From Nyssa sinensis (taxonomy: Eukaryota > Streptophyta > Magnoliopsida > Cornales > Nyssaceae), in contig CM018043.1 of NCBI GenBank assembly GCA_008638375.1, forward strand, positions 38,701,396-38,765,395: a DNA stretch of 64,000 nt, in the 5' to 3' direction. The position numbers and the translations under genes were made by a program. How positions within the stretch are numbered: the stretch's first letter is position 1; each line of letters opens with the position of its first letter. Shown one piece after another: positions 6,454 through 57,329 of this stretch. The notes under the pieces were generated by a model. That model was not told the DNA's origin and did not search any database. It saw only the letters and a program-made list of their open reading frames with translations.

Positions 6454-7485
6454 CTAATCCTGGCCTCTAGATCCTTCACCTGAAAAATGTTAGGATGATG
6501 GGGTGAGCTTAAATAAGCCCAGTGAGTAACACAAGTTCCCTGTCATGGGTTTCAAAACCAGTTCTTGCTTATAAAGCACACGGATGGTTCAGAATATTTC
6601 AGAAATAACAGTTCTATAAATCCACTTAAATACAGTTTTAGTAAAACAGAATCGAACAAACAGGATGCCAATGTATCAATCAAGAGTATAGGTAATGCAA
6701 TCAAAGAACGGAACAGATCAGTACTGAATGAAACAGAATAACAAACAGAATAATGCCAATTAAGTAGTACAGTATACTTATGCCATGCCGCTCAAGACTG
6801 GAGTGGTACCAAGAGTCAGACGTAATAGTACAGAACAGGTTTGAAACAACTATATGTATATAACAGAATAGAACAGAAAAGCCAGACAGAGTAAAATCAT
6901 GCATTTAAGTATATGCGTTTAAATAGTGTAGCATATAAAACGATACAGTGTATGAGATACAATATCTATACAGTGTAACTTATACACCAAGTCAGAAGTT
7001 CCAAGTTACTCACCTTTAAGTCTTGGAGTGGGTGCTATAGTTTGTGCCTTCCTGTCTCTTTTAAGCCTAAAACAATTTGAAAATTCCATCAACTTGTGAT
7101 CTTAATCTATTCTTAGGCTGTGTAAGTCTATCTCTGTGATGGGTTCCATTCATGCAGAATTGGACTAACTCATAGTGATTTACTCATAGATATTAGCTTT
7201 GAAGCATTTCATTTAGGGTCTTAGTGTTTTTCCTTTCTATTTCCTCTTTTAGAGCTTCCTCAGCCTTCTTGCGGTTGCCTCTTTCATTAGTCATCCCATC
7301 GGGACGATTGGGGCTTTATATATAAATGGTCTAACCGATACGATTTCGGTCGTCTTGGCAATCCTAATTTTCCTGGCAATTACTTTTTGTTGCCACAACA
7401 AGTCTTCCACGAACTCATGCTGCTTTTTATCTGTTGTCCTCTGAGCCTTGGTTATAATTGTAAATTCCTTCTGTTTCTTATCCAT
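6454..7485 (-). pseudogene. Decayed copy of the B-LTR small three-exon gene
   Basis: Exon 1 starts at the ATG at 7485-7483 and is open to a TGA at 7291-7293, after residues matching 'IAKTTEIVSVRPFIYK'. A 4-bp deletion relative to the 19.4-kb copy follows, and the exon 1 donor GT has become CT. Exon 2 (7066 down to 7014, 53 nt, Lys/Arg rich) still has TTTTAG and GTGAGT borders. Exon 3 (6479 down to 6454) has TTTTTCAG and reads 26 nt to a TAG in the same phase as the other copies. It is a non-functional relative of the gene at 22795-23756. Confidence 0.65.
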
Positions 7486-18290: not shown

Positions 18291-19400
18291 AGTTCGTCAC
18301 ATCCCAAAACCCACCTTATGCAGATTTAGGACTTATGACCGGCCAGTTAGGCACCCATCGAATTTTTTTTTTTTTTGAAATTAAAATACCAACGGTAATC
18401 CTAACCACAGGCCATTCACTTGTAACTTCCAAGTGTAGTGCATTCGATATACATGAGTTAAGCAGCGGAAATTAACAATGAGAATGCATATTCACTTGGC
18501 AGAGGAACTAACTGCATCTATAGTTGATATTACATAGTTCAATTACAAAAGTTGTGCCATTGTACGTTTGGTTATACAAAATATCCAAAGATGAGATGGG
18601 ATACAAAAATGGAATTATGTTCGTAAGTTCTTCAGAATAATCCCCTAGGTTCCTAGCCGGCTAATCCTAGCCGCTAGATCTTTCACTTGAAAAATGTTAG
18701 GATGATAGGGTGAGCTTAAACAAGCCCAGTGAGTAACACAGGTTCCCTGTCATGGGTTTCCAAACCAGGTCTTGCTTGTAAAGCACACAGATGGTTTAGA
18801 ATATTTTAGAAATAACAGTTCTATAAATCCACTTAAATACAGTTTTAGTAAAACAGAATCGAACAGACAGGATGTTAATGTATCAATTAGGAGTATAGGT
18901 AATGTAATCAAAGAATGAAATAGATCAGTACTGAGCGGAACAGAACAACAAACAAAATAATGCCAATTAAGTAGTACAGTATACTTATGCCATGCCTCTT
19001 AACACTGGAGTGGTACCAAGAGTCAGACGTAACAGTACGGAACAGGTTTGAAACAACTATATGTATATAATAGAACAGAACAGAAGAGCCAGACGGAGTA
19101 AAATCATGCATTTAAGTATATACGTTTAAACAGTGTAGCATATAAAATGGTACAATGTATGAAGATACAATATCTATATAGTGTAACTTATACACAAAGT
19201 CAGAAGATCCAAGTTACTCACCTTTAAGTATCAGAGTGGGTGCTACAGTTTGTGCCTTCCTCTCTCTTTTAAGCATAAAACAATTTGAAAATTCCATCAA
19301 CTTGTGATCTTAATCTATTCTTAGGATGTGTAAGTCTATCTCTGTGATGGGTTCCATTCATGCAGAATTGGACTAACTCATAGTGATTTACTCATAGATA

Positions 19401-19696
19401 TTACCTTTGAAGCATTTCATTTAGGGTTTCAGTATTTTCCCTTTCTTCTTCCTCTTTTAGAGCTTCCTCAACCAGCCTTCTTGCCGCTGCCTCTTTCATT
19501 AGTCGTCCCATAGGGACGATTGGGGCTTTATATATAAATGGTCTAACCGAGACAATTTCGGTCGTCTTGGCAATCCTAATTTTCCTGGAAATTACTTTTT
19601 GTTGCCACAATAAGTCTTTCATGAACTCCTGTTGCTTTTTATCTGTTGCCCTCTAAACCTTGGTCATAATTGTAAATTCCTTTTGTTTCTTATCCA
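19401..19696 (-). pseudogene. Exon 1 of the B-LTR small gene, decayed copy
   Basis: Start ATG at 19696-19694. A TAG at 19655-19653 interrupts the frame after 'FTIMTKV'. The rest is open to the TAA at 19401 and includes 'IAKTTEIVSVRPFIYK', 'RLMKEAAARRLVEEA' and the end 'TETLNEMLQR'. The exon 1 donor AG|GTAA is intact. The acceptor of exon 2 (19260s) has TAG changed to TATG, and the acceptor of exon 3 (about 18690) has CAG changed to CAA. Its lesions differ from those in the other LTR of the same element. Confidence 0.6.
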
Positions 19697-20635
19697 TTAC
19701 AATTATCACCTACGTAAAATTAACGAGTTAGGAATTTCATTCTAATTTAGACACCTCTAATAACTTTAGTATTTTAAGTTTGATTTTATTACTTCATGTG
19801 TTGTCGTGTCATTTTTTTTTGTACCTTATTTCGTAATATGGACCTCGTCATTAGGTTCGGAACGTCGAAGAAAGTCAATTTAGACCCTCTTGACTTTTTA
19901 TTTGGCCTCGGGTACATTAGGGGTATTTTGGTCATTTTACATTTGTGAAATTCTGACTCCGATTCATCATTTAATCATGTGTACAGTCTCAGAGGTATTT
20001 GGGCCCCTATTGGTATTAATTTCGTCCCAATTGGACTTCATTTAGACTTTGTATAACGTTAGGTGCATTTTGGTAATTTCATGCATCATATTTTTCGGTA
20101 CTTCATTTGCTAGTACAGACCCCACCATTGAGTCCGGAGCGCCCAACATAGTCAAAATGGACTGTCTTTTAGTGTTATTTGGTCCTAGGTATCGTTAGGG
20201 GCAGTATAGTCATTTACCATTTACGTGTCTTTATTTTTCGAGACCTAATTTGTCACGACCCGAAACCCACCCTATGCGGATCTCGTGTCGCGGGGCCGAC
20301 CCGAAGGCCGTCCCTACTGTAACACCCCAGACTTAATTATTAAACTATGTAATGAAAACTTTTCTTGAAATCTGATCTGGCATTTAACTGTTTAAATTCA
20401 ACTGTTTAATACTGATCAAACCCATGTTAGCAAATGTTAAAAATTCTGAGAAACTGATTATTGTCACTGAACCCTTAGACACTGAAGCTAACCTAACTAG
20501 GAGTTGACCGAAGGAAACCGCGTCGAAAATTAAGCTACAGATTGAAAGTTAGGAAGAAAACAGTGAAACTGCATTAATGCGCAGCCAAACAGGGCCTAAG
20601 CCCGAAATAGGGGAAAAAGACCAAAAATGTGGACA

Positions 20636-20702
20636 AGGGGATTTGATCCCTTGACCAAACTAGGCAAAATTTAGTTTACCAAAAATTTACCAACTAAGCT
20701 AA
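20636..20702 (-). promoter_or_regulatory. tRNA-like module antisense to nested B LTR
   Basis: The minus strand reads 'gcttagttggtaa' (A box) and then, about 45 bp on, 'tcaagggatcaaatcccc' (B-box like). It matches the modules at 11072, 13181 and 54614. Confidence 0.4.
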
Positions 20703-20717
20703 GAGCACCTTTGTGCA

Positions 20718-21175
20718 TATATATGCAAAGATATATATTTAATTAGTAATCAGATTTGGCCTCTCCCCAAAGTGACCAATGGACATGCATGCAACACCTC
20801 AGCATGCATCACCCTAAGCCCTAGCCATCATGCCTATTCCACCATGATTACATCTCCTCCCAACCAAATTGCATGCAAACCCATCATGCACTTGGGGGAG
20901 ATGAAACATCAAGAAAAGAAATCTGATTTTTGATATACAATCTCCATGAGACCAGATCTGTATTGAGGGTAGTCTACTGTTTTAGAGAGAGTGTGGGTTA
21001 GAGAGAAAGGGAGAGAATCTAGAGAGAGAAAGTGAGACCTTGTGTGTGCATTGGTGATCCATTGAAGAAGCAATAGAAGGGAGCTAAGATCTGGGACTGC
21101 ACGGAGGGATCAAAGCAACCTGTTGGAGTTCCTGTTTGAACCTAAACCAGTGAGGAGACCACTGTTTGAAGGTAA
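20718..21175 (+). promoter_or_regulatory. Putative LTR promoter and leader exon (nested B LTR)
   Basis: A TATA-rich stretch (20718-20740) is followed by GA-rich runs (20990-21040) and then a strong 5' splice donor 'gaaggtaagcc' at about 21168-21172. The order TATA, GA tract, donor recurs in the A, B and D LTRs (donors near 31883, 41248, 48218, 55133). I infer the transcription start lies here and that the small gene is downstream of an intron of about 1.6 kb. No transcript data are available. Confidence 0.4.
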
Positions 21176-22279
21176 GCCATCCAAAAACCTTGAACTTCTC
21201 TTTGGAAATTTCAGCTACTGTTTTGATGTTTTTAGGATTTTTTACGCATGTATCATGTTTAAACCATAAAATCTGGATTGAATGCTCACATTTGAACCAT
21301 CAGAACTGCCCCAAACCATGGAAACAGTGAAATCCGCCATTAGAGGACCTTGACTGAATGGGTCTAGTTCAACCTGCTCCGAACTTGTTTTAGTTACTTG
21401 GGACGTAAAATAGACCTTCCTAGGATCACAAAAACCCTAGACCGCGACCTCAATACCTAGGTTTAAGCCCTCAAAATCGACATCATCCTTTTCGGCCCAA
21501 AAATCAACTCGCAACGTTTGACCACTAAATCGAGATTGAACGATGGGGAATTGAAGCCCATGTTAAGAGGGTCACGGAGGACCAAACCCCGTGCAAAATG
21601 GTCAAGAAACCAGGCCGTATGGACCGACTGTAACTCCCACGATAATCGGCTAGAACAGTCCCCCGTCGTTGAGTTTGATGCTTGAAACCGATGCCAAACG
21701 AATGGTCTTACACCCAGGAGTCTTTTAGAACAAAAACCAGTGAAAATCGATGCATAAAACCCCACGAAATTGGAAGAGAAATTTCTGAAATTTCTAGGGC
21801 AACAGTGGCCCTAGACGGGTGAAGACGATGAACAGTAACCGGGTCATGGATCGGGTTTGCGGGTCGGGCTCTGACCCGACCGAGAAACGGATAAAACCCA
21901 TAAATCAAAACTGCGTCGTTCTGTTAACTGATTTTAAATTTTTGAATTTTAGGGCTGACGTCAGCCTGACGTCAGCACATTACCCTGAACCGGTCAAGAC
22001 CGGATTGAACCGGTCCGGTTCACTTGCTTAAGGGCTGAACCCTTTGGTTCAGTTCAAACTTTTGGAAAATTGCAAACCAACCCCCAACAGTTCCGAAATA
22101 TTACACTGTGGCCCAGATTCTGATATTTTATTTCATTTATACCCCTGATAATTTAATAAATAATAAATTAATTTATTTAATTAATTTATTAATTAAATAA
22201 AAATGACCAAATTACCCCTAGGTCATAAATAGGTCAAATAAAGTCCAAATAAGTCAAATGAATAGTGTATTTTCACTAT

Positions 22280-22470
22280 TTCAACCATTCCGGACTCAAT
22301 GGTGGAGTCCGATTTGAGAAATTAAGTCCCGAAAAATACAAACACGTAGGAGTAAATGACCATACTACCCCTGATGATACTCGAACCCAAATACAACTAA
22401 AAGATAGTCTATTTTGACTATGTCAGACATTCCGGACTCAACGGTGAGGTCCGTATTAGCAAATAAAGTA
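22280..22470 (+). repeat. Iteron pair with inverted-repeat core in nested B LTR
   Basis: GGACTCAATGGTGGAGTCC (about 22292) and a second unit beginning GGACTCAACGGTGAGGTCC (about 22434) are 142 bp apart. Each is followed by 'agtcccgaaaaatac' or 'agtaccgaaaaatac' and by 'gaccatactacccctga' or 'accaaattgcccctga'. The core is a 6-bp inverted repeat with a 7-bp spacer in the first unit. Further degenerate units lie on either side. Confidence 0.6.
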
Positions 22471-22794
22471 CCGAAAAATACAACACACGAAATTACCAAA
22501 TTGCCCCTGACACTGTTTAGAACCCAAACAAAGTCCGATTGAGACGAAACTGAAAACAATAGAAACCCCGACACGTAGGGGACTATACACATGATTGGAT
22601 GACGAATCGGAGTCGAAACTTCACAACTGTGAAATGACCGAAATACCCCTAACCCTGTATCAAGCTAGATAACATCCGAATGAACTAAGAACTAACCCAA
22701 TGAAAGCTTAAATAATTTCATGACCGGACTGCCTAGAAGTAGTACACATCCTGACTTCTTGGATCATGCTATAGGGTAAAAACTCAAACCGGTC

Positions 22795-23756
22795 ATGGAA
22801 GGGAAAAACAAGAAATTTACCATTATGTCTAAAGCCGAAAGACTAGCTGACAAGAAGCAACAGGAGTTCATGCAACAACTCTTATGGCAACAAAAGATTA
22901 TCGAACGGAACATAAGGATAGCCAAAACGACTGAGGTAGTCTCCGTTCGACCGTTTATATACAAGATGCGTACCAAGGCAATGGTCGCAGAGGCTAAACT
23001 AAAGAAACAGGAAGACACGGAAACCCTGAAAGAGTGGGTGCAAAGGTGAATTTCAATTATCATAAAAACACAATAGACAGCGAGATAGTCTAACTCAGGT
23101 TGAATTTTGAATTAAAATAAACCAAGTTAAGATTCATGTGAGATTTACGAAATGTTCCTAAATTTTCTAGGATAAAGAAGGATAAGAAGAAGAGAAAGGC
23201 TTCTCAGTTAAAACCCGATACCGCACAAGGTGAGTAACCTAGACTCCTGAATTGGTGTATAAGTACACCATCTAGTTATTGTATTTTTATTACTGTACTG
23301 TACTGTTCCTACTGATATACTGACTTCCATGCTTTTACTCAATGCATGACTATATTTTACCCTGTCCGATTTCACTGTTCCGTATTGAAATGAAATTATC
23401 CTTGTTTTTACTAAAAGAACTACTGACTCATGGTACCAAATTCAGTCTTGATCTCTGTATGAGCATATTGCACTATTTAAAGTGTGCATACTGTACTGTT
23501 AACCTGTTATACTGTTCTGCTCTGCCCATTATTGAACTGTTCTGTTGCTATGATGTTTTGACTGTATTCTTGTTTTGAATATTGTTCAAATATACGGATT
23601 TAACTATATTCTCTAAAATGTCTGATCCGACCACCTGTTTTATAAACAACAATGGTTTGAAACCCATGACAGGGGACCCGTGTTACTCACTGGGCTTTTT
23701 AAAGCTCACCCCTTCCCTAACATTTTTCAGGTGATGGACCTAGCGACCGAGATTAG
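22795..23756 (+). CDS. Conserved small three-exon gene inside a B-family LTR (function unknown)
   Basis: Predicted exons are 22795-23045 (251 nt), 23171-23229 (59 nt) and 23731-23756 (26 nt to TAG), giving 111 residues. Splice borders are CAAAG|GTGAAT, TTTCTAG|G, ACAAG|GTGAGT and TTTTTCAG|G. Residues 1-60 are mixed charged and probably helical, with the best-conserved stretch 'IAKTTEVVSVRPFIYK' (about 41-56). A second charged region ends 'TETLKEWVQR'. Exon 2 gives a basic patch 'KKDKKKRKA', possibly a nuclear localisation signal. Exon 3 gives 'GDGPSDRD'. Without splicing, exon 1 alone would give 84 residues ending at TGA 23047-23049. Three related copies in this window keep splice phase and differ in exon 2 length by multiples of three. 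I know no family like it. A role in element transcription, RNA handling or silencing evasion would be speculation. Confidence 0.6.
23681..23730 (+). promoter_or_regulatory. Conserved LTR block before the last exon
   Basis: 'tgttactcactgggc' plus a near-palindrome GGGCTTTTTAAAGCTC, then 'accccttcc' and TTTTTCAG. Equivalent blocks are at 57255-57303, 43401-43453 and 50370-50422, and inverted in the other copies. It combines an intron 3' end with a possible hairpin. The function is unknown. Confidence 0.5.
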
Positions 23757-24170
23757 CGGGTTGGAGACCCGAAGCACTATTTTGAAGAATCCATGAATTA
23801 GCCATTTTTGTACCTAACTCCATTTTTGAATGTGATGTACTGAAACCTAAGACTAGTATCTTTTGTAGGACAATGATGTAATAGTTAACCATGGATGTAT
23901 TTATGGCTCTGCCAAGGTGTTATGCATTCCCTTAGTTCCGCTGCAACTTATATTAATTGAATGCATTGTACTTGGATGTTACTGATGAATGGCCTGTGGT
24001 TAGGATTACCGTCGGCATTTTGATTTCAAAAAAAAAACCCGATGGGTGCCTAACTGGCCGGTTGCATGCCCCTAATCCGCACAGGGTGGGTAAGGGGGAT
24101 GTGACACCTACTTTTTCCATTCCTGTATCATAGTACTAATATGCAATGTACTAAAAATTTTAAACAATGA

Positions 24171-40578: not shown

Positions 40579-43500
40579 TGTAATATCCCAACCCGGGATA
40601 TAGTGTGTACACCGGGCTGGACCGGGCTATAAAATGAAATCCCGAATTATGAGCCGTTATATGACATAAAAAAAAAGGGGGGATGCGTAATAGACTGTAT
40701 TGTTCAATTACGATGCATAGGTACGAGAGGCAAACAGTCACGGGTGTCCGGCTGCTGTTACACCGGAAGCCGAGTTTATTGAAAAACGTGCAAGTGAATG
40801 TCGACGCATAAATTTTTAAAGTAAATCCAAATGATTATGAATATCATATATATATATATATACAGTTGGATGACATATATATATATATATTATAATACAA
40901 TATAATTAAATACAAAGAAATAAAATGGAAAGAAAGGAATTGCATGTGGGTCATGTGTGAGGTGTCTTGTGTGCATGAGTGTGCTGCCACCGCGGCTACA
41001 AGTGGCAAGGGCCACCGACTGGGGGATCGGTTAAAGGGAATGAAGAAAGAGATTGGAAGAGAGAGAGATAAGGTAGAGAGAAAAGAGGCGGTGAGTGTTT
41101 TGTATATATATATGTATACGGGTTTGAGAGATGAGAGGTTAGAAAAGGAAAGAAGGGTCAGGAACTGAAGGGGAGAAGAAGGGAGAGAGATTGGTTCAGA
41201 AACTGAAAGGTGGGAGAGTCACAGTGAGCTCAAAATCCGAAACCCAGGTAACTGATTTCAGTTCTGTTATTTCGATTTAAAGCATAAAGCTTAGATATAA
41301 TTGTGGGGTCTGAACAAGCATGAAATATAGAAATTATTGCAAAAAGAATGAAGCTAAATGGTGTAGAAACCATAGAGAAAATTTGAATTGCAGGTTCGGG
41401 AGGATAATCGGGTTCCATGAACTTTATGTTTAAAAACTTGTTTTGAGTTGCTAGAAATGACCTACACAAGTGTAGAAACACACTAGAAACATTTTTGAGC
41501 CAAAACCGTGATTTAAACGCCATGAAATGGAAGAATCCACATGGCCGAAAAATCGGCCGAAAATGTTAAACCCCTATTTCGTGATGATGGGGAGGGCTTT
41601 AGGGCAAGTCGAGGCTAGGGTCGAGATCCTTGGAGGGAAAGGAATGGAATGGCATTGAAAACGGCTTAAAAAATGATTAAAAATGAGTCACCGTCGCCGG
41701 AGAGGACGACAGTGTACGCCGGAAACCTACCGGAGACGTGGGGAAGAAGATCGGAAAAGCGTGGGTCTATTCGGGGACGGATCCGGGTTGGATCGGGTCG
41801 GTACCCGACCGGAAATAAAAACGGTACCAACACTGTGTCGTTTTGAATGTAAAATTAAAATCAATTGGGCTGTTTGGTTGCAGAGACAATAAATAGAGAT
41901 GGGGTCTAGGGGTTAACCGAACCATGGATAGGGATAGGAAATTGGGTTATTGTATTCCGGTTCTTGAAGGAAACTGAACCATTTGGTTCAGGAGAAAGGC
42001 TGACCGGTTTAGGGTTTTGGGGTCTGAACCAACTGGTTCAGACCGCAGCTTATGGAATTTATGAACCGGCCCCAAATGTTTTGAAAAATTCCACTAAGGC
42101 CCAACAGAAAAATGTTAATTTTACAAAAATGCCCCTGACTCAAAAGTGGGTCAAACGAGGTCCAAATAGGGCAAATGAATAGTCAATTTTTATTATCTCG
42201 CATGCTCTGAGTCCAATGGTGAGGTCCGTTTCACGAGACGGAGTCCCGAAAAGTTATGACTTGTAAAAATGACCAAAATACCCCTGCTCATAGGTGAGTC
42301 AAATGGACTCCGATTGAATTAAATAATTAGTGAATTTTTATTATTCTGAACCTTCCGAATCTATTGGAAATGTCCAAATTATGAAAAGAGGTTCCGAGAA
42401 CAACGGACATATAGAAGTCTAAATAAGTATTAGAAATACTGATCATAGCAAGGCATAGAGTTTGGTGAATAGAAATTATTCTGAAACGTATTTACTGATA
42501 TATAGGGAACTCAACGGGGAAAAGGCAAACCTACAGGAGACTGATTTAGCAACGCATTAGAGGTAAGTAGATACCCTTTCTCTTCCATGTGGTGTTATCA
42601 AGCCAAGTTCATTCTTTTACTGCCAAACTTGTATTCCTGAGCGTATCTGATGTTATTGTCTCCACAATGTGATATTGTTCTATCTGGTGGACATTGATTT
42701 ATTGTTGTACCATCGTTATCATGTTGAACCGTACTTTCAAATGCCTATTGTTATGTTTCCATTGAATTGATGATATTCCATTTTATATACTCTTATGGAA
42801 TCATTTATGATCATGAAATGTTTATGTATACAGGATTTGTGCTCAGTCACAATATCCATCCGATGCTTTTAAATACACTGAAGACCTTCGGGTCGAGTCC
42901 GTGAATGGACATATGGCCATACACTGGAATGCACTGAAGGGGGTAAACCGGGCCCCCAAGGACCGAGGGCATATCAAGCCCTGACACAGAACAAAAGCAT
43001 CTCTTATACGATTGCTCAACTAAAATTGTTGAGTTACATTGTTCTTGTGATTATCTTGTATTGCGAGATATTCCTTTATTGATTTATTATGATCAATTAT
43101 AATGGCAGTACTTTCTTGTTATTATATTATCGTTGAGAATTCCAGAACATTGTTATGCCATTCCTACTGATTACACATTGTGATCCTACTGTTCATTTGC
43201 CACTGTTCACATGTTAAGAGTTTCATGTTGATGTTATGTCCCTTACTCCTAATGGTACATTGTGTTCTATTGTTTATTGGCCTTTATGGCAACTGTTCCC
43301 ATTGGCTATTATAGCATCTTATTTTTATGATTGGCTATCTTATTCTTATTCTTGGATTCATATTCTTTTATGATCCTCGATACCAGTGTCGGAGATCTGT
43401 ATTTACTTGCTGGGCTCTTGTAGCTCATTCCACCCTCCTCACCCCCATTTCAGGTACTGATGCCGCGAGACCCCGGTAGGAGTTTAAAGACATAGAAGGA

Positions 43501-43781
43501 CATTTGAGGAAATGCATCAGTTTATGTTTTAGTTCTCCCATGTATTCACCACCCTCGGGTGCTGGTCATGTTTGGTTCTTATTTTGTTTATGTAGAACCA
43601 TATTATGTATTGTAAAGACTTTCACTAACATTGTGTATTGAAAAGACTTCCGCTGTTATTGTTTTGAGGTTTTAGTACTTTGCACATTAGTACTATGATA
43701 CAGGAATGGAAAAAGTAGGGACGGCCTTCGGGTCGGCCCCGCGACACGAGATCCGCATAGGGTGGGTTTCGGGTCGTGACA
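40579..43781 (+). repeat. 5' LTR of the young A element
   Basis: TGTAATATCCC to GGGTCGTGACA. It includes TA repeats (about 40848 and 40878), GA-rich and TATA blocks (41060-41115), a leader donor 'acccaggtaact' (about 41247), iterons near 42210 and 42350, an exon-like block 42506-42562 (TATAG|G to AG|GTAAGT), and the GGGCTCTTGTAGCTC block with TTTCAG (43401-43453). Confidence 0.95.
41060..41250 (+). promoter_or_regulatory. Putative promoter and leader donor, young A element 5' LTR
   Basis: GA-rich sequence, a TATATATATATG stretch (about 41102-41113), more GA-rich sequence, and a donor 'cccaggtaact' at about 41247. It is repeated identically in the 3' LTR about 6.97 kb downstream. Inferred only from the arrangement. 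Confidence 0.35.
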
Positions 43782-47544: not shown

Positions 47545-50500
47545 TGTAATATCCCAACCCGGGATATAGCGTGTACACCGGGCTGGACCGGGCTATAAAA
47601 TGAAATCCCGAATTATGAGCCGTTATATGACATAAAAAAAAAAAAGGGATGCGTAATAGACTGTATTGTTCAATTACGATGCATAGGTACGAGAGGCAAA
47701 CAGTCACGGGTGTCCGGCTGCTGTTGCACCGGAAGCCGAGTTTATTGAAAAACGTGCAAGTGAATGTCGACGCATAAATTTTTAAAGTAAATCCAAATGA
47801 TTATGAATATCATATATATATATATATATACGGTTGGATGACATATATATATATATATTATAATACAATATAATTAAATGCAAAGAAATAAAATGGAAAG
47901 AAAGGAATTGCATGTGGGTCATGTGTGAGGTGTCTTGTGTGCATGAGTGTGCTGCCACCGCGGCTACAAGTGGCAAGGGCCACCGACTGGGGGATCGGTT
48001 AAAGGGAATGAAGAAAGAGATTGGAAGAGAGAGAGATAAGGTAGAGAGAGAAGAGGCGGTGAGTGTTTTGTATATATATATATGTATACGAATTTGAGAG
48101 ATGAGAGGTTAGAAAAGGAAAGAAGGGTCAGGAACTGAAGGGGAGAAGAAGGGAGAGAGATTGGTTCAGAAACTGAAAGGTGGGAGAGTCACAGTGAGCT
48201 CAAAATCCGAAACCCAGGTAACTGATTTCAGTTCTGTTATTTCGATTTAAAGCATAAAGCTTAGATATAATTGTGGGGTCTGAACAAGCATGAAATATAG
48301 AAATTATTGCAAAAAGAATGAAGCTAAATGGTGTAGAAACCATAGAGAAAATTTGAATTGCAGGTTCGGGAGGATAATCGGGTTCCATGAACTTTATGTT
48401 TAAAAACTTGTTTTGAGTTGCTAGAAATGACCTACACAAGTGTAGAAACACACTAGAAACATTTTTGAGCCAAAACCGTGATTTAAACGCCATGAAATGG
48501 AAGAATCCACATGGCCGGAAAATCGGCCGAAAATGTTAAACCCCTATTTCGTGATGATGGGGAGGGCTTTAGGGCAAGTCGAGGCTAGGGTCGAGATCCT
48601 TGGAGGGAAAGGAATGGAATGGCATTGAAAACGGCTTAAAAAATGATTAAAAATGAGTCACCGTCGCCGGAGAGGACGACAGTGTACGCCGGAAACCTAC
48701 CGGAGACGTGGGGAAGAAGATCGGAAAAGCGTGGGTCTATTCGGGGACGGATTCGGGTTGGATCGGGTCGGTACCCGACCGGAAATAAAAACGGTACCAA
48801 CACTGTGTCGTTTTGAATGTAAAATTAAAATCAATTGGGCTGTTTGGTTGCAGAGACAATAAATAGAGATGGGGTCTAGGGGTTAACCGAACCATGGATA
48901 GGGATAGGAAATTGGGTTATTGTATTCCGGTTCTTGAAGGAAACTGAACCATTTGGTTTAGGAGAAAGGCTGACCGGTTTAGGGTTTTGGGGTCTGAACC
49001 AACTGGTTCAGACCGCAGCTTATGGAATTTATGAACCGGCCCCAAATGTTTTGAAAAATTCCACTAAGGCCCAACAGAAAAATGTTAATTTTACAAAAAT
49101 GCCCCTGACTCAAAAGTGGGTCAAACGAGGTCCAAATAGGGCAAATGAATAGTCAATTTTTATTATCTCGCATGCTCTGAGTCCAATGGTGAGTTCCGTT
49201 TCACGAGACGGAGTCCCGAAAAGTTATGACTTGTAAAAATGACCAAAATACCCCTGCTCATAGGTGAGTCAAATGGACTCCGATTGAATTAAATAATTAG
49301 TGAATTTTTATTATTCTGAACCTTCCGAATCTATTGGAAATGTCCAAATTATGAAAAGAGGTTCCGAGAACAACGGACATATAAAAGTCTAAATAAGTAT
49401 TAGAAATACTGATCATAGCAAGGCATAGAGTTTGGTGAATAGAAATTATTCTGAAACGTATTTACTGATATATAGGGAACTCAACGGGGAAAAGGCAAAC
49501 CTACAGGAGACTGATTTAGCAACGCATTAGAGGTAAGTAGATACCCTTTCTCTTCCATGTGGTGTTATCAAGCCAAGTTCATTCTTTTACTGCCAAACTT
49601 GTATTCCTGAGCGTATCTGATGTTATTGTCTCCACAATGTGATATTGTTCTATCTGGTGGACATTGATTTATTGTTGTACCATCGTTATCATGTTGAACC
49701 GTACTTTCAAATGCCTATTGTTATGTTTCCATTGAATTGATGATATTCCATTTTATATACTCTTATGGAATCATTTATGATCATGAAATGTTTATGTATA
49801 CAGGATTTGTGCTCAGTCACAATATCCATCCGATGCTTTTAAATACACTGAAGACCTTCGGGTCGAGTCCGTGAATGGACATATGGCCATACACTGGAAT
49901 GCACTGAAGGGGGTAAACCGGGCCCCCAAGGACCGAGGGCATATCAAGCCCTGACACAGAACAAAAGCATCTCTTATACGATTGCTCAACTAAAATTGTT
50001 GAGTTACATTGTTCTTGTGATTATCTTGTATTGCGAGATATTCCTTTATTGATTTATTATGATCAATTATAATGGCAGTACTTTCTTGTTATTATATTAT
50101 CGTTGAGAATTCCAGAACATTGTTATGCCATTCCTACTGATTACACATTGTGATCCTACTGTTCATTTGCCACTGTTCACATGTTAAGAGTTTCATGTTG
50201 ATGTTATGTCCCTTACTCCTAATGGTACATTGTGTTCTATTGTTTATTGGCCTTTATGGCAACTGTTCCCATTGGCTATTATAGCATCTTATTTTTATGA
50301 TTGGCTATCTTATTCTTATTCTTGGATTCATATTCTTTTATGATCCTCGATACCAGTGTCGGAGATCTGTATTTACTTGCTGGGCTCTTGTAGCTCATTC
50401 CACCCTCCTCACCCCCATTTCAGGCACTGATGCCGCGAGACCCCGGTAGGAGTTTAAAGACATAGAAGGACATTTGAGGAAATGCATCAGTTTATGTTTT

Positions 50501-50751
50501 AGTTCTCCCATGTATTCACCACCCTCGGGTGCTGGTCATGTTTGGTTCTTATTTTGTTTATGTAGAACCATATTATGTATTGTAAAGACTTTCACTAACA
50601 TTGTGTATTGAAAAGACTTCCGCTGTTATTGTTTTGAGGTTTTAGTACTTTGCACATTAGTACTATGATACAGGAATGGAAAAAGTAGGGACGGCCTTCG
50701 GGTCGGCCCCGCGACACGAGATCCGCATAGGGTGGGTTTCGGGTCGTGACA
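47545..50751 (+). repeat. 3' LTR of the young A element
   Basis: Collinear with the 5' LTR. Differences seen include T/C at the 26th base, length changes in an A-run and in TA repeats, and scattered single transitions (for example near 48488, 48753, 48960, 49195, 49383 and 50425). The flank TGTAG follows. Confidence 0.95.
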
Positions 50752-56754: not shown

Positions 56755-57329
56755 ATGTGTGAAGGCACTGAAACCCTAAGCCAAATGCTTAAGAGGTAAG
56801 ACCTATGAACTAGCCACTATAAGTTAGTTCCATGAAACCCATCATAGGGTAGACTTACTCAGTCTAAGGTCATGAGTTGATAAATCTTTATAAATTGTTT
56901 TAGGCTTAAAGAGAAAAAGAGGAAGGCTCCGTTCCTAGCTTCAAATTCAAATATTGAAGGTGAGTAACTTCTGACACTGTTTTAGTTACTGCTCCTTGAT
57001 CTGTTAAATTGTTTCGAATACTATATGTTTTAAATGCAATTGTTTAAATGTATGCTTTTATCACCGATGACATGGTTTTTAGTTTCTCAAATGATTAACT
57101 ATACTTCTGATTGATATGCTAGCACTCTGAACCGTTTATCTGTTTTGATTTATTGAATTTGACTTGGATTTATTGAACTATTAATTCCAAACTGATTTAA
57201 TTACCATGTGATTTAAGCAAAGATTGAATTCGAAACTCTTGCCTGGATATCTGTGTTACTCACTGGGCTTTTAAAGCTCATTCCATTATTTTAATAATTT
57301 CAGGGGAACCCTCAGATGGACAGGTTTAG
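56755..57329 (+). CDS. Short form of the B-LTR small three-exon gene
   Basis: Predicted exons are 56755-56795 (41 nt), 56904-56959 (56 nt) and 57304-57329 (26 nt to TAG), giving 40 residues: 'MCEGTETLSQMLKR', a basic exon 2 starting 'LKEKKRKAPF', and the end 'GEPSDGQV'. Borders are AAGAG|GTAAGA, TTTTAG|G, TTGAAG|GTGAGT and TTTCAG|G. Phases 2 and 1 are the same as in the long copy at 22795. Relative to that copy it lacks the N-terminal region including the RPFIYK stretch. The in-frame TAA just before the ATG (56750s) shows exon 1 does not extend further. Function unknown; it may be a truncated relic that still reads through. Confidence 0.45.

Follow-up and report, generated by a model that had tools for sequence, protein, structure and literature searches.

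Does the LTR of a plant retrotransposon carry a spliced, protein-coding gene of its own? Annotators of such elements usually regard LTRs as control DNA, so that a gene located there can readily escape notice. The question is raised by a stretch of 64,000 nucleotides of the Nyssa sinensis genome (contig CM018043.1, positions 38,701,396 to 38,765,395), hereafter called the window, whose own coordinates are used throughout. An original prediction, made from the letters of this stretch alone, proposed that a family of LTRs in it harbours a small gene of three exons that is spliced and has been under selection. This proposal is upheld here, with corrections, by codon tests, by losses of the first intron and by the position of the gene within the LTR. 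Overall, the observations are very probably best explained by a small accessory gene which lies in sense orientation inside the LTR of an abundant element, probably a chromovirus, and which is both spliced and selected as a protein.

The host element

The LTR that hosts the gene occupies 20318–24106 on the forward strand (3,789 bp), beginning with TGTAACACC and ending with ATGTGACA (TGTAACACC...GGATGTGACA in the feature list). A complete element with its PBS served to place the boundaries of this LTR, and 31 of the 33 LTR copies fetched match it from end to end. The 5-bp target-site duplication CCTAC, read from the sequence, flanks it on the left (20313–20317) and on the right (24107–24111); it is therefore a solo LTR. 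A TATA-like stretch at 20718–20737, on the same strand as the gene and with TATATA at 20718 and 20732, is probably the LTR promoter.

Complete elements were found in the genome (1.0 Gb in 211 contigs searched) as pairs of LTRs on the same strand, about 8.5 kb apart. In the C12 element, a 5′ LTR of 3,791 bp is followed by a PBS which, by its motif, is of the Met-tRNA type; a purine tract precedes the 3′ LTR and the target-site duplication is AAGGG. The presence of paired LTRs, PBS, purine tract and duplication identifies an LTR retrotransposon. The internal region is a single open frame of 1,508 codons, an open gag-pol seen in one copy. Searched in three pieces, it gave Pfam matches to gag, CCHC, RVP_2, RVT_1, RNase H, Integrase_H2C2 and SH3_Tf2-1, and the resulting order of gag, protease, RT, RNase H and integrase is that of gypsy elements. 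Integrase_H2C2 scored above its own curated cut-off, while rve and Chromo stayed under theirs, the chromodomain match (PF00385) reaching E=1.3e-4 and 22.2 bits against a cut-off of 25.1. The host is an abundant Ty3/gypsy element, probably of the chromovirus kind; its lineage is probably of the Tekay/Del type, as judged from the length of the LTR, its termini and the weak chromodomain. The six LTR pairs that are fully comparable differ by 0 to 0.47%, and the subfamily of the window is therefore young.

As anticipated by the original prediction, complete elements have two copies of the gene, one in each LTR, and a solo LTR has one; each leftover solo LTR is accordingly a possible gene copy. The gene is situated within the LTR and not between the 5′ LTR and gag-pol, where an ORF0 of the Retrosat2 type would be located.

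Structure of the gene

All three exons of the window copy (copy B) can be read at the positions predicted, on the forward strand. Exon 1 (22795–23045) comprises 83 codons and 2 nt, and its first 57 residues are kept across subfamilies. It is followed by intron 1 (23046–23170, 125 nt), which is exactly missing at four sites of the subfamily and in one copy of another. Exon 2 (23171–23229, 59 nt), which is fused to exon 1 in loci L094–L097, contributes a lysine/arginine-rich tail, IKKDKKKRK.... The predicted intron 2 (23230–23730, 501 nt) separates it from the predicted exon 3 (23731–23756), whose 26 nt lead to a TAG and would encode GDGPSDRD; exon 3 is coding only in some subfamilies. Both introns are of the GT-AG type, and the joined exons (336 nt) form an open product of 111 residues ending at the TAG.

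Splice sites were scored with a plant-like weight matrix. The donors of introns 1 and 2 rank third and second among the 176 GT sites of the LTR, and their acceptors rank fifth and fourth among 211 sites. All four splice dinucleotides are retained as GT or AG in 66 of 66 aligned copies of a wider set, which consisted of 68 copies, part of them chosen by the exon-1 protein, before two were removed for broken alignment. Intron 2 and exon 3 are predicted from these conserved splice sites, no removal of intron 2 having been found in the genome. The best donor of the LTR, first among the 176, is AAG/GTAAGC at 21172–21177 on the forward strand, about 1.6 kb upstream of the gene. Lying in the stretch 21166–21177, this donor suggests a possible non-coding leader exon on its 5′ side, followed by a large leader intron.

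The window contains further copies in varying states of decay. The original prediction had assigned identical splice phases to the window copy and to those at 6454–7485 (copy A) and 56755–57329 (copy C), an assignment that stands for the window copy; copies A and C are not intact genes. In copy A, on the reverse strand, exon 1 (7285–7485) is interrupted by an in-frame stop after codon 64 and by a later frameshift, and the donor is lost, CT standing in place of GT. Copy C, on the forward strand, retains both introns together with exons 2 and 3, but of exon 1 it keeps only the tail, as judged by eye. A fourth copy, A2, spans about 18600–19697; its exon 1 (19404–19697, reverse strand) is of the 98-codon form of subfamily A, with one stop, and the acceptor of its intron 1 is mutated. 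Exon 2 measures 53 nt in A, 59 nt in B and 56 nt in C, as had been reported.

Constraint within the subfamily and variability of exons 2 and 3

Selection within the subfamily was followed in the 40 copies closest in DNA to the window gene, the latter included. In 35 of them the start codon, the reading frame, the stop codon and each of the four splice dinucleotides are intact. Exon changes private to one copy amount to 19 replacements, 9 silent changes and 3 stops, close to the 17.2, 9.6 and 2.9 expected under neutrality, given the spectrum of changes that these copies show in non-coding sequence. Changes common to several copies, or to both LTRs of an element, number 10, 14 and 0, against an expectation of 17.8, 7.3 and 1.5 (binomial p=0.0019); the direct comparison of lineage with private changes is marginal (Fisher p=0.053). 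Since private changes look neutral and lineage changes are short of replacements, the constraint appears to act during replication of the element and not after its insertion. The lineage changes comprise 5 replacements and 11 silent changes in exon 1, as compared with 5 and 3 in exons 2–3, where no constraint is visible. Selection is clear in exon 1 only.

More distant relatives were collected by a protein search with copy A, which gave 150 scored matches of 75–100% identity from 3,677 candidates. Twenty diverged copies were taken from these 150 for their spread of identity and for a stop-free matched stretch; because of this choice, their openness is not independent evidence. Together with window copies B, A and A2 they make up a set of 23 sequences, with an alignment of 21 of them. 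In most copies exon 1 has 84 or 98 codons up to the donor, 57 conserved residues being followed by a variable charged stretch. The unspliced frame ends right at the donor of intron 1 in 15 of the 23, and RNA left unspliced could therefore yield a product of some 84 or 98 residues. The unspliced frame continues for 9–10 residues past the donor in L076 and L086, in A, A2, L079, L084 and L090 it stops before the donor, and L089 is without intron 1.

A simple rule sufficed to delimit exon 2 in 14 of the 23 copies, with lengths of 53, 57, 59, 60, 63, 64, 65 and 66 nt. The claim that its length varies only by multiples of three, correct for the three window copies, therefore fails over the 53–66 nt seen in the 14 delimited copies; where the frame closes within this exon, its length does not hold to multiples of three, which speaks in part against the original prediction by the indel criterion that it had set itself. 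Nor does the last exon always run 26 nt to a TAG: the joined frame meets a stop inside exon 2 or at its end in ten of the 14 (L076, L078, L081, L082, L085, L086, L087, L091, L092 and L093), and passes through exon 2 in B, L075, L080 and L083. The start of exon 2 in the joined frame is rich in lysine and arginine in 13 of the 14 as judged by eye, L083 being the weak case.

These features invite the question of whether exon 1 alone is the gene. Unspliced RNA that terminates at the donor of intron 1 or shortly beyond it would then be translated into a protein of roughly 84 or 98 residues; removal of this intron would be incidental and exons 2–3 would not be functional coding sequence. The restriction of within-subfamily selection to exon 1, the variable length and frame of exon 2 with its frequent stops, and the stop codon that spans the donor in 15 of 23 copies, or follows it closely in L076 and L086, would all be consistent with this possibility. 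Against it stand the retention of the splice sites in all 66 aligned copies, the recurrent basic start of exon 2 and the exact absence of intron 1 from separate lineages (see below). We consider it unlikely, and favour the gene in which exon 1 is spliced onwards.

As to the product itself, structure prediction for exon 1 from a two-row alignment returned one long helix (pLDDT 82, pTM 0.39), a model of low overall confidence that is too weak for a fold search. No match to the product was obtained in the PDB, the only two matches in Pfam had E values of 1 and 1.7, and the 12 matches of a pattern search in IMG/VR included no relative. In these collections nothing of known function resembles the product, so that the role proposed for it below is a guess.

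Loss of intron 1 from genomic copies

If spliced RNA is reverse transcribed, LTRs without the intron are to be expected. A 30-mer across the junction of exons 1 and 2 occurs, with at most 3 mismatches, at four sites in the genome, as compared with 345 sites for the border that contains intron 1; the reversed control gave 0 in both cases. The four loci lack exactly the equivalent of window positions 23046–23170, while intron 2 and the upstream part are kept as far as these loci were fetched. Intron 1 is also absent, at the same junction, from L089, a member of another subfamily that was included in the diverged set of 20. No copy without intron 1 was present among the first 73 loci, where the matches to the second junction were intact borders.

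In a tree of 71 copies, computed with the intron omitted and one copy dropped, the four loss loci fall in three separate places. L095 adjoins the intron-containing L035 and L036 at 0.9%, L094 stands apart, and L096 and L097 group with L051, which contains the intron. The last pair are the two LTRs of one C21 element, with the target-site duplication AGTTA flanking the pair at either end and a PBS following the first LTR; such an element, devoid of intron 1 in both LTRs, is what would be expected if spliced genomic RNA had been reverse transcribed. L096 and L097 lie 14.09 kb apart, and an insertion between them is therefore probable.

The C21 element (G000:C21:28289416-28307185) is an older one, its LTRs, both without intron 1, being 2.4% apart over the part read, and it has roughly 5.6 kb extra between the LTRs relative to the usual spacing.

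The spliced junction of exons 2 and 3 was found at 0 genomic sites, as against 506 intact borders. Losses thus number 4 of 349 for intron 1 and 0 of 506 for intron 2 (Fisher p=0.027), two of the four belonging to one element. The comparison of genomic copies shows precise losses of intron 1 from the LTRs of several separate lineages. From this we infer that the intron is spliced out of the RNA, and that RNA so processed can serve as a template for reverse transcription. Template switching or gene conversion could spread a single loss, and the count of independent losses therefore depends on the tree. A chance deletion, or one loss spread between copies, would dispense with repeated splicing, and the occurrence of two of the four sites in one element would fit such an origin. 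We nevertheless regard it as very improbable, because the missing stretch is exactly the predicted GT-AG intron, at three separated places of the tree and in another subfamily, because one element shows the loss in both LTRs and because the reversed pattern had no match.

Purifying selection between subfamilies

The argument for protein-level selection had been a core of 17 codons (22915–22965 compared with 7365–7315) with 10 codons changed silently and one replacement, counts that proved exact. Over the whole 57-codon block, copies B and A differ at 15, 3 and 33 first, second and third codon positions, respectively, the excess at third positions being significant (p=4.6e-6). Across the 253 pairs of the 23-copy set, compared over 57 codons, mean pS is 0.63 and mean pN 0.137; dN/dS in the 151 pairs with finite dS > 0.1 has a median of 0.09 and a maximum of 0.72, with none reaching 1. 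Codon models likewise place exon 1 far below 1 between subfamilies, as would follow from the selection originally proposed: omega is 0.221 (GY) or 0.159 (MG), and lnL under GY is −1547.2, as compared with −1643.7 when omega is set to 1 and kappa to 2. The pN/pS ratio in the sense frame of the 23 copies is 0.216, as against 1.20 and 1.82 in the shifted sense frames.

These codon statistics show that exon 1 encodes a protein that was under strong purifying selection while the element spread into subfamilies. The LTR therefore contains coding sequence under selection at the protein level, as an LTR-encoded accessory gene should. The junction and codon tests are independent of the reasoning behind the original prediction, so that chance is not a plausible cause of its success.

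The conserved stretch could in principle be a cis-acting RNA or DNA element, such as a packaging signal or an enhancer, instead of a protein gene. An LTR is where cis elements are expected, and conserved blocks do occur outside the exons. Yet the changes are silent and fall at third codon positions, omega lies at 0.16–0.22, and distinct indel events in the 66 copies of the wider set number 1 in exons, compared with 20 in introns (and 20 in flanks). The codon-position pattern, omega and the exon and intron indel counts rule out a cis element as the sole explanation, to which we give hardly any credence.

The least credible reading, with a probability close to nil, takes the antisense frame that overlaps exon 1 (99 codons in the window copy, 23063–22764, minus strand) as the conserved coding sequence and the sense frame as its shadow: this frame does run for at least 60 codons from 23063 in 32 of 32 full-length B LTRs, and has a pN/pS of 0.262 (the other antisense frames give 0.88 and 1.56 in the 23 copies), but it is disfavoured by a TAG that closes it at the same place in both window A copies, by 26 stops over 23 copies as compared with 1 in the sense frame (20 of these copies having been chosen for an open sense frame) and by the 15/3/33 pattern, which fits sense coding where antisense coding would give 3/15/33, and the lost intron, moreover, reads GT-AG in the sense direction.

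Relation to known systems and proposed mechanism

Retroviruses have to make a spliced regulator while their genome stays unspliced, and meet this problem via Rev, Rex or Rem. If the present gene is expressed, a plant retrotransposon, too, makes its own regulator from spliced RNA while its genome must remain unspliced. A regulator like Rev, Rem or CERV would be made from spliced RNA and would have a basic nuclear or RNA-binding tail; in the present gene, splicing of intron 1 is supported by its exact losses, and the start of exon 2, rich in lysine and arginine by sequence, may be such a tail.

Several systems are comparable by description, as far as excerpts of the respective reports go. Mouse mammary tumour virus has an accessory protein, Sag, whose coding sequence sits in an LTR of unusual length and which is expressed from spliced RNA, as well as the spliced export factor Rem, needed for transport of unspliced RNA (PMC3026287); unlike in this vertebrate retrovirus, the intron lies inside the LTR gene here. 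CERV of the Caenorhabditis elegans element Cer1 is also a novel protein of an LTR retrotransposon produced from a spliced mRNA; it is required to export unspliced genomic RNA, and a figure legend names a KRKK nuclear localisation sequence (PMC10309623). That legend compares CERV with GAG, which is partly removed in the spliced product, and CERV therefore appears to derive from the internal region and not from the LTR.

Among plant elements, additional open reading frames, either env-like or antisense as in Grande, RIRE2 and Retand, likewise represent an extra conserved gene, often of unknown function; according to the excerpted account they reside in the internal region (PMC7264820), in contrast to the gene described here. 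The grass elements Retrosat2, RIRE3 and RIRE8, relatives within Tekay/Del, have LTRs that measure about 3 kb or longer, plus a single extra reading frame, ORF0. In the excerpted description, ORF0 is a second reading frame upstream of gag-pol for which an intron is not mentioned (PMC3485330), whereas the present gene is within the LTR. The assignment of Retrosat-2 to Tekay/Del comes from a report whose excerpt also mentions extra reading frames and an intron of Ogre between gag-prot and RT (PMC6317226). Finally, in EVD, BARE-1, Tyran and Varan, splicing together with premature transcript ending yields a second product, shGAG; by the excerpted account this product is a form of GAG, not of an LTR gene (PMC7730604). 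Neither a plant gene encoded in an LTR nor an accessory and read-through circuit for plant retrotransposons was found among the literature matches listed, judged by titles and the starts of abstracts.

The following mechanism may be envisaged. Transcripts would start at the LTR promoter, and the leader intron may begin at 21172. RNA ending near the end of the LTR would be fully spliced and would yield a protein of some 110 residues, basic and helical, or a shorter one if a stop is met in exon 2. Read-through RNA, by contrast, would keep its introns, occasionally without intron 1, and would supply both the genomic RNA and the mRNA for gag-pol; whether or not the terminal exon is used would decide between accessory mRNA and genomic RNA. 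Such a model would account for the occasional absence of intron 1 from new copies and for the lack of any loss of intron 2 among the sites found.

By analogy with CERV or Rev/Rem, the protein could be a nuclear RNA-binding regulator that aids export or packaging of the intron-retaining genomic RNA, which is our best guess at its role and is put forward tentatively. It is also conceivable, if rather doubtful, that the LTR constitutes a self-contained gene with promoter, leader exon, coding exons and terminator, present in hundreds or more copies including solo LTRs. Its spliced product would act in trans, in a Rev- or Tat-like manner, on intron-retaining genomic RNA, and the terminal exon in the 5′ LTR would set the choice between accessory mRNA, which is spliced, and genomic RNA, which reads through. 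An LTR from which exactly one intron is missing records what RNA served for reverse transcription, and such records can be looked for in other genomes from DNA sequence by itself.

Other repeats

In locus L046 (1929–2200), intron 2 contains a further, incomplete copy of its own start, which a template switch in reverse transcription may have produced. Overlapping direct repeats with identities of about 70–80% at 3–1477 of the window probably represent an old tandem array. Two further direct copies of 3.2 kb each, at 40579–43781 and 47545–50751, are 99.4% identical.
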